Source: Rhodanobacter glycinis (GTDB lineage: Bacteria > Pseudomonadota > Gammaproteobacteria > Xanthomonadales > Rhodanobacteraceae). Taken from it: a stretch of 64,000 bases of DNA. How positions within the stretch are numbered: position 1 is the first letter of the stretch; the number at the start of each line of letters is the position of its first letter. The stretch spans positions 5,810 through 69,809 of the forward strand of contig NZ_RCZB01000004.1 of the NCBI RefSeq assembly GCF_006438785.1, given 5' to 3'. The notes under the pieces were generated by a model. That model worked only from the letters and a program-made list of their open reading frames with translations. It was not told the DNA's origin and made no database searches. A program made the position numbers and the translations under genes. Of this stretch, positions 13,281 to 16,148 are shown piece by piece.

Positions 13281-13952
13281 ATGAGTATCCGCGACTGGCC
13301 TGAAGGGGAACGCCCCCGCGAAAAACTGCTGGCACGCGGCAGCGCCTCGCTGTCCGACGCCGAGTTGCTGGCGGTACTGCTGGGTAGCGGCAGCCGTGGC
13401 AAGGACGCCATTGCGCTGGGACGAGAATTGATCGCCAACGCTGGCAGCCTGGGCGCGCTATTGGCCTGCCCCGAGCAGCAGATCCGTGCCGGTGGGCTGG
13501 GTCCGGCCAAGCGCGCGCGGATCGCCGCCGCGCTGGAGCTGGCTCGACGCAGCCTGGCCGAGCAATTGCTGGCAAAGCCCAGCCTGGGTAACCCGCGCGA
13601 CAGCGGCGATTACCTGCGCGCCCGACTGCGGCACCTGCCGTACGAGGTGTTCGGTTGTCTGTATCTGGACAACCGCCACCGCGTGCTGGCATTCGAGGAA
13701 CTGTTCCGCGGCACCGTCGACGGCGCCAGCGTGCATCCGCGCGAGGTGGTGCGGGCTTGTCTGCAGCACAATGCCTGCGCCGTGATCTTCGCCCACAACC
13801 ACCCTTCCGGCGTGGCCGAGCCGAGCGCGGCCGACCGCGCGATCACCCACGAGCTGCGCGATGCGCTGCAGCTGGTCGGGGTGCGTGTGCTCGACCATAT
13901 GGTGATCGGCAGCGGCGAGCCTGTATCGATGGCGGCTCGCGGCCTGCTCTGA
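13281..13952 (+). CDS. radC: RadC-family JAB-domain protein
   Basis: Member of the RadC/DUF2466 family, 223 residues; the family has a metalloprotease-like fold but no settled biochemical role. The N-terminal half has a helix-hairpin-helix-like segment (LGPAKRARIAAALEL) and the C-terminal half the metal-binding JAMM set HPREVV ... AHNHPSG followed by SAAD, all intact. It lies divergent from coaBC, a classical arrangement in gammaproteobacteria. No T-rich terminator follows on the plus strand. Confidence 0.93.
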   Translation: MSIRDWPEGERPREKLLARGSASLSDAELLAVLLGSGSRGKDAIALGRELIANAGSLGALLACPEQQIRAGGLGPAKRARIAAALELARRSLAEQLLAKPSLGNPRDSGDYLRARLRHLPYEVFGCLYLDNRHRVLAFEELFRGTVDGASVHPREVVRACLQHNACAVIFAHNHPSGVAEPSAADRAITHELRDALQLVGVRVLDHMVIGSGEPVSMAARGLL

Positions 13953-13969: not shown

Positions 13970-13998
13970 AAAAAAACGGCGTGGAATGATCCACGCCG
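13970..13998 (-). terminator. Strong intrinsic terminator for leftward transcription without an upstream gene
   Basis: On the minus strand CGGCGTGGA and TCCACGCCG form a perfect nine-base GC-rich stem with a four-base loop, followed directly by seven T residues. On the plus strand the hairpin is followed by CAGGGCCGA, so it does not serve radC. No leftward protein gene lies between here and argS, which makes the terminator an orphan. Confidence 0.75.
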
Positions 13999-14146
13999 CA
14001 GGGCCGATTTGGGAGGGGGAGAGAGCGGCGTCTCCGGTGCCGTTTCATGGAGGGGAGTCATGTCCAGGCCTCGCCAGTGTCGCAGCGCCGCATGACGAAC
14101 CGATGACATGTGGAGTTCGCATGAAGTGCCGCCAAGTCGCCGATAC

Positions 14147-14155
14147 TTATGCACA
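14147..14155 (+). promoter_or_regulatory. DnaA-box-like site
   Basis: TTATGCACA matches the DnaA-box consensus TTATNCACA. It lies left of an AT-rich stretch. A single nine-base match can occur by chance. Confidence 0.35.
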
Positions 14156-14193
14156 AAATGAAGATACCGGCACTTGCCGGGCCTATCGTGCCT

Positions 14194-14222
14194 TTGACCA
14201 TAAGTTGTAACTGCAATTATAT
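14194..14222 (+). promoter_or_regulatory. Candidate argS promoter in an AT-rich island
   Basis: TTGACC (14194-14199), a 17-base spacer and TTATAT (14217-14222) form a plausible sigma-70 promoter. It sits in an AT-rich island of about 70 bases (14193-14262), unusual for this GC-rich sequence. It would give a leader of more than 200 bases before the argS start. The rest of the gap 13953-14459 holds the small-RNA candidate, two DnaA-box-like sites and no convincing protein gene. Confidence 0.45.
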
Positions 14223-14310
14223 GATATGTATGGATATATTATTGTGACAAGTTGATTTTTTACCTTCCGAGGCGGAGCTCGAACCGTCAGCTGCAGCTTT
14301 CCCCACAGAC

Positions 14311-14319
14311 TTATCCACA
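14311..14319 (+). promoter_or_regulatory. DnaA-box-like site (perfect TTATCCACA)
   Basis: TTATCCACA is the strongest form of the E. coli DnaA box. It has the same orientation as the site at 14147 and lies on the other side of the AT-rich island, 141 bases upstream of argS. Function is unproven. Confidence 0.45.
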
Positions 14320-14459: not shown

Positions 14460-16148
14460 GTGAAAGAACAGCTGCGCGAACTGGTGCTGCAAGCGATCCA
14501 GGCCCTGCAAGACGATGCCACCCTGCCTGCCGACCTGACCCTGCCCGGGTTCGTGATCGAACGCGCACGCAGTCGCGAGCACGGTGATTTTGCCTGCAAC
14601 GTGGCGATGCTGCTGGCCAAGCCGGCACGTGCCAAGCCACGCGAGCTGGCCGAGAAGCTGGTCGCTGCGCTGCCGGCCAACGGGCTGGTGGAAAAAGTGG
14701 AAATCGCCGGCCCCGGCTTCATCAACTTTCACCTGGCCGCCGGTGCCTATCACGGCGAAGTCCGCCGCATCATGGTGCAGGGTGATGCTTACGGTCGCAA
14801 CGAAAGCGGAGCGGGCAAGACCATCGGCGTGGAATTTGTCTCGGCCAATCCGACCGGCCCGCTGCACGTGGGCCATGGTCGCGCCGCCGCAATCGGCGAC
14901 TGCCTCAGCCGCCTGCTCGATGCCACCGGCTGGAACGTCAAGCGCGAGTACTACTACAACGATGCCGGCGTGCAGATCGCGAACCTGGCCATCTCGGTGC
15001 AGGCGCGCGCCCGCGGCATCACCCCGGACGACAGCAGCTGGCCGGACAGCGGCTACCGTGGCGACTACATCGCCGACGTGGCACGCGCCTACCTCGATCG
15101 CGAATCCGTGGTAGCCGATGGCGAGACGGTGACCGGCGCCGGCGATGTCGACGACCTCGACGCGATCCGCCACTTCGCCGTGGCCAGCCTGCGCCGCGAA
15201 CAGGATCTCGACCTGCAGGCCTTCGGCGTCGCCTTTGACACCTATTTCCTGGAATCGTCGCTATACAGCGACGGCAAGGTGGAAGAGACCGTGCGCGAGC
15301 TGATTGCCCACGGCCACACCTTTGAGGAAGGCGGCGCGCTGTGGCTGCGCAGCACCGACTTTGGTGACGACAAGGACCGCGTGATGCGCAAGTCCGATGG
15401 CACCTACACCTATTTCCTACCTGACGTGGCTTATCACCTGAGCAAGTGGCAGCGCGGTTACCAGCGTGCGATCACCGAACTGGGTTCGGATCACCATGGC
15501 TCGCTGGCCCGCGTGAAAGCTGGTCTGCAGGCGCTGGATTGCGGCATCCCCAAGGGCTGGCCGGAATACGTGCTGCATCAGATGGTGACGGTGATGCGCG
15601 GCGGCGAGGAAGTGAAGATCTCCAAGCGCGCCGGCAGCTACGTCACCCTGCGCGACCTGATCGACGAAGTCGGCCGCGACGCCACGCGCTACTTCCTGAT
15701 TGCACGCAAGTCCGATTCGCAACTGGTGTTCGACATCGACCTGGCCCGTTCGCAGAGCAACGACAACCCGGTCTACTACATCCAGTACGCGCATGCTCGC
15801 GTCTGCAGCGTGTTGCGTCAGGCACCGGAGAAGGGCTTCTCGTTCGACCTGCAGGACGGCCTCGCCAACCTTGCGCGGCTGGACAACGAGCACGAGCAGA
15901 TCCTGCTGACCGAACTGTCGAAGTATCCGGAACTGGTCGATGCCGCCGCGGCGAACCTGGAGCCGCACCTGGTTGCCGCGTGGCTGCGTGAACTGGCCAA
16001 TGCGTTCCACACCTACTACAACTCGCATCAGTTCCTGGTCGAGGACGCCGCGCTGCGCAACGCGCGCCTGGCGCTGGTGGTGGCGACCCGGCAAGTGTTG
16101 AAAAATGGCCTGCAATTGTTGGGCCTGAGCGCCCCGGAGAAGATGTAA
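14460..16148 (+). CDS. argS: Arginine--tRNA ligase
   Basis: Cytoplasmic class I synthetase that charges tRNA-Arg. With GTG 14460 the product is 562 residues, the normal bacterial length. It shows the N-terminal Add1-type domain, the HIGH-type motif in [13 protein letters not shown] near residue 135, and the KMSKS region in its usual ArgRS form (KISKRAG), then the C-terminal DALR anticodon-binding domain. The frame stays open upstream to 14349 but those residues do not look like a synthetase; the ribosome binding site before GTG is poor, so the start is less certain than the identity. The next gene's ATG overlaps the stop codon by one base. Confidence 0.95.

Follow-up and report, generated by a model that had tools for sequence, protein, structure and literature searches.

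According to excerpts of PMC3771888, the small RNA sX13 (RF02232) is limited to the Xanthomonadaceae and carries apical loops rich in C, which pair with G-rich motifs close to the start codons of its targets, and both its own C-rich motifs and the G-rich motifs in the targets are reported to be needed (PMC3771888). The same excerpts assign apical C-rich motifs to the alpha-r7 family of the alphaproteobacteria, whose RNAs consist of three stem-loops (PMC3771888). Small RNAs linked to phosphate or PhoB include, in excerpts of the respective reports, EsrL of enteropathogenic Escherichia coli, RNAs of Sinorhizobium meliloti and srvg23535 of Vibrio alginolyticus; there, ChIP-seq in E. coli K-12 is stated to have seen no PhoB at the EsrL promoter, and the PhoB site of srvg23535 is given as a prediction only (PMC10294691, PMC8829014, PMC6186989). 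A PhoB box in place of the -35 element is, as excerpted from PMC3616915, a known layout at PhoB-activated promoters (PMC3616915).

Here a stretch of 64,000 nucleotides from Rhodanobacter glycinis (hereafter the window) was analysed; an unrecorded regulatory RNA of about 100 nt is very probably encoded on its minus strand, between radC and argS. Judged from sequence comparison, this RNA is very probably under PhoB control and probably acts as an anti-Shine-Dalgarno repressor. It resembles sX13 in size (about 100-115 nt), in having its own terminator and C-rich loops, and in occurring in the same order; it differs in its predicted interleaved helices, as opposed to the three plain stems of sX13, in its PhoB-type promoter and in its locus. 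With alpha-r7 it shares apical C-rich motifs, whereas the lineage is different and no Rfam match was obtained in the window or at the loci of 16 relatives. EsrL, the S. meliloti RNAs and srvg23535, which were compared through Rfam searches only, are alike in their reported or predicted response to phosphate or PhoB. RNAs of this kind are known; within the reach of the Rfam and literature searches, no family with this fold and promoter class is on record. Among the matches listed in a search of open-licence PMC titles and the beginnings of abstracts, no paper dealt with a small RNA between radC and argS, or with small RNAs in Rhodanobacter, Dyella or Luteibacter.

Locus and terminator

Both flanking genes, radC (13281-13952) and argS (14460-16148), scored above the NCBIfam cut-offs and run rightward, in agreement with a preliminary description of this DNA, which had noticed a minus-strand terminator without a leftward gene before it. 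The stem at 13998-13977 is formed by CGGCGTGG/CCACGCCG plus an A-T closing pair, with the loop UCAU, and is followed by T7 at 13976-13970; the T-run adjoins the stem on the minus strand only. What had been called a perfect nine-base GC stem does have nine Watson-Crick pairs and the T7, but 7 of the nine pairs, not all, are G-C according to the scan. Terminator-like sites within 4 kb, counted on both strands, numbered 3 against 2.6 expected from shuffles; a single site of this type is therefore within chance expectation, and its weight comes from its conservation.

The two CU-rich stretches that had been remarked on upstream of the terminator were both located on the minus strand, ACTCCCCTC at 14058-14050 within the loop of a CATG/CATG hairpin and CTCTCTCCCCCTCCC at 14025-14011. 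The span of 13970-14212 that had been proposed for the small RNA proved too long, for the conserved promoter begins at 14108 with a predicted transcript start near 14070, and 14127-14180 belongs to a different element with a conserved DnaA box. The 245-nt span folded as one RNA gave z values of -1.55 (minus strand) and -1.25 (plus strand), that is, no signal, because two different elements are mixed in it. The coordinates of the features are collected in Table 1.

Table 1. Features of the radC-argS interval, in positions of the window
Feature	Position	Strand	Remarks
Predicted small RNA, about 101 nt	13970-14070	-	Start predicted from the -10 element; RNA matched by covariance models R1 and R2
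PhoB-type box TGTCATCGGTTCGTCAT, two GTCAT repeats with 11-bp period, replacing the -35 element	14092-14108	-	104/105 loci
-10 element GACACT, 10 nt past the box	14076-14081	-	xAxxxT at the same spacing in 104/104 box-bearing loci
Hairpin 1, CAUG/CAUG; possible outer GCC/GGC at 14069-14067 / 14041-14039	14046-14062	-	4/4 pairs changed on both sides (65 sequences); 92.7% of cells paired
Apical loop ACUCCCCUC, predicted anti-Shine-Dalgarno seed 1	14050-14058	-	CUCCCC in the first 48 nt of 97/105 transcripts
Predicted pseudoknot helix S1, GGAGA (14035-14031) / UCUCC (14022-14018)	14018-14035	-	5/5 pairs changed on both sides; 91.1% of cells paired
Predicted pseudoknot helix S2, GCCG (14029-14026) / CGGC (14006-14003), interleaved with S1	14003-14029	-	96.8% of cells paired; both-side changes in 2/4 pairs
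Pseudoknot loop 3, C-rich CCCUCCCAAAU, predicted anti-Shine-Dalgarno motif 2	14007-14017	-	CUCCC between nt 49 and the terminator region in 99/105 transcripts
Intrinsic terminator, stem and T7	13970-13998	-	99.1% of cells paired; both-side changes in 5/9 pairs
Separate element with DnaA boxes TTATGCACA (14147-14155) and TTATCCACA (14311-14319), 164 bp apart	14147-14319	+	Not part of the small RNA

Distribution in the Rhodanobacteraceae

A DNA search of 100 genomes, comprising that of the window, 44 others of the same genus and 55 from outside the genus, gave matches in the window's own genome, in 41 of the 44 and in 2 of the 55. The matches split into two blocks, one upstream (about 14180-14127) and one, the core, on the minus strand at about 14110 to 13968. 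Of the 45 genus members, counting the window's genome, 41 have the core. No match of the DNA search was found in G008, G017 (79% complete) and G022, and G001 gave the upstream block only, being without the core by covariance model as well.

Covariance model R1 was built from 39 genus sequences (alignment A1, that is, 39 of 41, with L011 and L029 left out as missed by the pattern), and at E≤0.01 it matched 93 of 197 genomes of the family. Outside the genus, 54 R1 loci were read and 53 kept; L166 was dropped, having neither box nor radC or argS. A second model, R2, was run against 299 genomes of the order and had matches in 56 of them at E≤0.001; 15 further loci were read and 11 kept, with L167, L168, L177 and L181 dropped for having neither box nor radC-argS. 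The three R2 matches outside the family had neither. Two extra minus-strand matches of 96 (L115:1573-1679 and L156:1087-1163) were dropped before counting. In all, these searches, among them the covariance search that the preliminary description had suggested for the family, gave copies at 105 loci in 105 genomes, belonging to 15 of the 26 genera in the family sample; 105 is a floor (at least 105), because only part of the R1 and R2 matches were fetched and read. No verified copy was obtained from the other 11 sampled genera. A stricter promoter pattern, run against a named collection of 84,980 species in which records near the window's genome may be absent, returned 29 stretches, all titled Rhodanobacter or Dyella.

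At 100 of the 105 loci the RNA lies at argS (radC within the fetched flank in 96), and the remaining five are at a ppk/phoR locus. These five genomes (G003, G006, G026, G028 and G037) have the core at this other place, and the radC-argS interval of the four in which it was fetched contains the upstream DnaA-box block only. The core is therefore an independent unit, since it sits elsewhere in five genomes while the upstream block stays behind. In all five, the relocated promoter and RNA adjoin a glycosyltransferase gene, with ppk next; on the other flank, four genomes have phoR and then phoB, with the unit pointing at the 3' end of phoR, and the contig of G037 ends before that side could be read. 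NCBIfam cut-offs were exceeded by PhoB at two of these loci, by PhoR at three and by polyphosphate kinase at two, the remaining phoB, phoR and ppk genes being assigned by similarity to the scanned ones. In G003 and G006, pstS lies 6-7 kb from the unit. Promoter, RNA and terminator are conserved together as one unit, the second location included, as is expected of an independent noncoding gene.

Promoter

PhoB-activated promoters have a repeat period of 11 bp and about 10 nt between box and -10 element. This layout, with a GTCAT direct repeat, an 11-bp period and about 10 nt to the -10 element, was found at 104 of the 105 loci, and the strict form GTCAY-N6-GTCAY at 102; the sole exception to the conservation of the repeat pair is L029, in which one repeat has decayed. 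The -10 sequences GACACT and CACACT are far from TATAAT. A sigma-70-like match at 14250-14221 was rejected as the promoter, as it does not travel with the RNA.

In the 4.28-Mb genome of the window, the pattern TGTCATN5YGTCAT occurs three times (reversed control, 0), and box and -10 pattern together give one exact match, which is this promoter, and one with a single mismatch (control, 0). A box with one mismatch precedes a porin-like gene near pstS in this genome, by eye a phosphate-selective porin; the NCBIfam scan of a relative of this gene gave no match. The same box and spacing (box, 10 nt, TCCAAT) precede ppk of G003, and at a threshold of 11/12 letters no box was found before ppk of the other four genomes with the unit at the ppk side. 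The other two of the three exact PhoB-type boxes in the window's genome are at L055:1501-1517, near a transporter gene adjoining a ppk gene, and at L057:1501-1517, near a sigma-factor gene, these genes being named by eye.

Fold and covariation

The structures were named by hand and then scored for covariation in a family alignment (A3) of 65 of the 94 loci then collected. Standard pairs made up 93.5% of cells, compared with 82.4% in shuffles, and both-side changes were found in 17 of 23 pairs and in 154 cells, compared with 47 cells in shuffles. As the genomes are related, these counts overstate the number of independent events, and those for hairpin 1, S1 and the terminator lean towards structure because the alignment was fitted to them by R1; S2 lay outside that model, and one extra S2 pair in the family count is unpaired in 35 of 61 cells. 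The covariation score was 0.292, against 0.126 in shuffled alignments (0/500) and at most 0.087 in slid versions. When the 3' sides were re-paired between genera (at most four sequences per genus, with the divergent genome G123 of genus g47 entered as its own genus), the score fell for hairpin 1, S1, S2 and the terminator, and none of 200 permutations reached the observed value. Within the genus the result was mixed: both-side changes occurred in 3 of 18 pairs, a number that 74 of 500 shuffles reach, and the cells with such changes numbered 13 against 3.0 in shuffles (0/500). RNAalifold on the genus alignment omitted hairpin 1 and placed the second helix in another register.

The sequences of both helices change between genera, S1 being UGAGA/UCUCA, GGGG/CCCC, GGAU/AUCC or GGCG/CGCC and S2 GCCGCA/UGCGGC or ACCGU/ACGGU elsewhere; in the genus of L164 neither S1 nor S2 was found by the script, and S2 is poor in L165. 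Compensatory changes were thus seen in both of two interleaved helices, with weaker support for S2 (2/4 pairs). Since S1 and S2 interleave, the two would, if formed together in one molecule, produce a pseudoknot of the H type in which loop 3 is rich in C; the sequences are compatible with coexistence of the helices as well as with their alternation.

The preliminary description had also pointed to two exclusive folds, the segment ACGCCGC being able to pair with the left arm of the terminator stem. This segment is present at 14031-14025, one position from where it had been placed, and the pairing is possible in the window; by eye, it is not kept in divergent relatives. The anti-terminator fold is not supported, failing where the left half of S2 differs (L165, L119 and L145, by eye), and the segment overlaps a pseudoknot helix.

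C-rich motifs and candidate targets

The CUCCCC and CUCCC motifs complement Shine-Dalgarno sequences; part of the second C-rich stretch is taken up by helix S1 in the window. Counts of motifs and of ATG codons were taken from a scripted cut of each transcript, and this cut is plainly misplaced in L121 at least. Targets were sought with a single seed form, which over 11 genomes served to list sites and not as a test. Eight copies of GAGGGGAG-N1-12-ATG occur in the window's genome, compared with two in the reversed control, and one of the eight is the complement of the small RNA itself. Candidates among the seed sites include a TonB-dependent receptor, a tryptophan halogenase, a protein weakly matching cytochrome c peroxidase and a secreted-looking protein of 118 residues.

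The 118-residue protein (L222:1511-1864; C1:1006014 in the window's genome) had no Pfam match and was matched in 96 of 100 genomes. Its gene, the leader of which was read in 50 genomes (41 from the genus), is the best candidate target. GGGGAG stands before its start in 33 of 38 genus genomes with the small RNA and in none of three without it; in other genera it does so in 2 of the 7 genomes with the small RNA whose leader was read, and GGGGAG is also the strong Shine-Dalgarno sequence of the gene. Confidence in the main explanation was slightly lowered by this recount. The leader of this gene is very constant in the genus (GGAGAGGGGAGCC-ATG).

Comparison with sX13 and other described RNAs

At the gathering threshold, Rfam gave no match in the whole window; at a loose threshold, 581 bases gave three weak matches, all far below the cut-offs, and the small RNA loci of 16 relatives gave weak matches at chance level only. 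The sX9 model had no match. In the genome of the window, the sX13 model (RF02232) had no match at radC-argS, and cmscan of the loci of 16 relatives gave no sX13 match at E≤3. Among 61 genomes of the order, RF02232 matched 18 at E≤0.001, eight of them over the cut-off. The window's genome had one match at this level, on contig C16:81715-81828 (L216:3216-3329), with 38.3 bits (below the cut-off of 50) and 141 bases past the polA open frame. Conversely, R2 applied to seven loci fetched for sX13 found nothing credible, the best match having an E value of 1.6 and lying at a different place in the locus. With the sX13-like match after polA and no credible cross-match, the sX13-like RNA and the radC-argS RNA are therefore separate.

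The closest parallel named at the outset had been sX13. The likeness holds for the design, namely C-rich apical loops (97/105 and 99/105 transcripts for the two motifs) and an own terminator, but not for membership: identity with sX13 is excluded by the lack of a model match at the locus and by the location at argS or ppk/phoR, not after polA. Seven further Rhodanobacteraceae of the sample also gave sX13-like matches, of which two exceeded the cut-off.

Interpretation

The leftward small RNA with C-rich loops and a terminator, as originally proposed, is borne out by family-wide conservation, covariation and a conserved promoter; its transcript, PhoB dependence, mRNA pairing and repression we infer from sequence. 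When phosphate is scarce, phosphorylated PhoB would bind the GTCAT-N6-GTCAT box that takes the place of a -35 element, and transcription would run leftward over about 100 nt, starting near 14070 and ending at the terminator (13970). From its 5' end, this RNA is predicted to form a hairpin that exposes CUCCCC in its loop, then an H-type pseudoknot whose loop 3 is rich in C, and finally the hairpin of the terminator. Through its C-rich loops it would pair with Shine-Dalgarno sequences of the GGGGAG type and lower translation of the targets. To this explanation as a whole, a trans-acting, PhoB-controlled small RNA with C-rich loops that lowers target translation, we assign a probability of roughly 0.7. 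That it serves as a phosphate-saving translation brake, in which the two anti-Shine-Dalgarno loops (one in the hairpin, one the third loop of the pseudoknot) would damp many mRNAs of the GGGGAG type when phosphorus, mostly held in ribosomes, runs short, is a tentative extension that we consider possible and rather doubtful.

A PhoB-driven RNA might act mainly on a protein, by titration through the C-rich loops, or on another RNA as a sponge, instead of by Shine-Dalgarno pairing. The stable, covarying structures that hold or adjoin the two C-rich motifs would suit protein binding equally, and the target evidence is weak; the close complementarity of the loop to Shine-Dalgarno sequences, together with the need of sX13 for its C-rich motifs and for G-rich target motifs in excerpts of PMC3771888, nevertheless makes this mode of action unlikely, although worth keeping in mind. 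Paralogous regulators of the OmpR/PhoB class read related direct repeats, and PhoB binding is here predicted from the sequence, so the promoter might answer to one or more of those regulators and the RNA not belong to phosphate starvation. The 11-bp period, the 10-nt distance to the -10 element, the same layout before ppk of G003 and the position of the unit beside phoR-phoB in four genomes speak against this, and we hold it to be quite improbable.

Coding readings of the interval fare much worse. On the plus strand of the window, an 11-codon frame preceded by GGAGGGGAGTCATG had suggested a rightward argS leader with ribosome-binding sites, but GGGGAG-ATG occurs at 37 of the 105 loci only, with a frame of 11 codons at 13 of the 37, while the stems and C-rich loops are conserved, which is the opposite of the outcome that the preliminary description had named as refuting the small RNA. 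These counts largely contradict the leader, as do the T-run past the stem on the minus strand only and the five genomes in which the unit is away from argS, and its probability is very small. A minus-strand gene for a small protein (ATG ACT CCC CTC CAT ...) is hardly credible either: hairpin 1 of the window does contain an ATG, and among genus sequences a frame of about 30 codons often begins at the first ATG, yet 30 of the 105 transcripts have no ATG, its position and the frame length vary within the genus, the frame is broken by indels in the genus alignment, and the paired bases covary.

The PhoB-controlled RNA with anti-Shine-Dalgarno loops would add a hitherto unrecorded family to the small RNAs of Rhodanobacter, Dyella and their relatives, a bacterial family common in the environment; its signal (phosphate), its mode of action and its fold, which would be unusual among base-pairing small RNAs, are predictions. 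PhoB-controlled repression of translation would be directly testable in cultured soil bacteria, and two unrelated RNAs with C-rich loops in one genome, one of them sX13-like, would form a natural pair for the question of how targets are divided.

Neighbouring DnaA-box element

The pair of DnaA boxes is strikingly conserved, keeping a spacing of 163-165 bp at 104 of 105 loci, with one genome contributing two loci, and it stays at radC-argS in four genomes that have the small RNA elsewhere. Between the boxes lie an IHF-like site, YAANNNNTTGATW, and a half-box, TTCCCCACA, the latter 13 bp before the second box; the DnaA boxes and the IHF-like site were assigned by their consensus sequences. The dnaA gene is about 50 to 245 kb from the element in the 16 genomes searched, with single-contig chromosomes treated as circles, and 91 kb away in the window's genome. 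By analogy, the pair may be a datA- or DARS-like element: the arrangement of the pair with an IHF-like site is like that of E. coli datA, the minimal region of which has, according to an excerpt of PMC10950094, one IHF site and four DnaA boxes (PMC10950094).

In G023 and G012, argS at the small RNA locus looks decayed (L032:1-760 and L035:1-860), with pieces matching only and frames on the expected strand of at most 185 codons in the stretch read; the small RNA and the DnaA boxes are kept in both.
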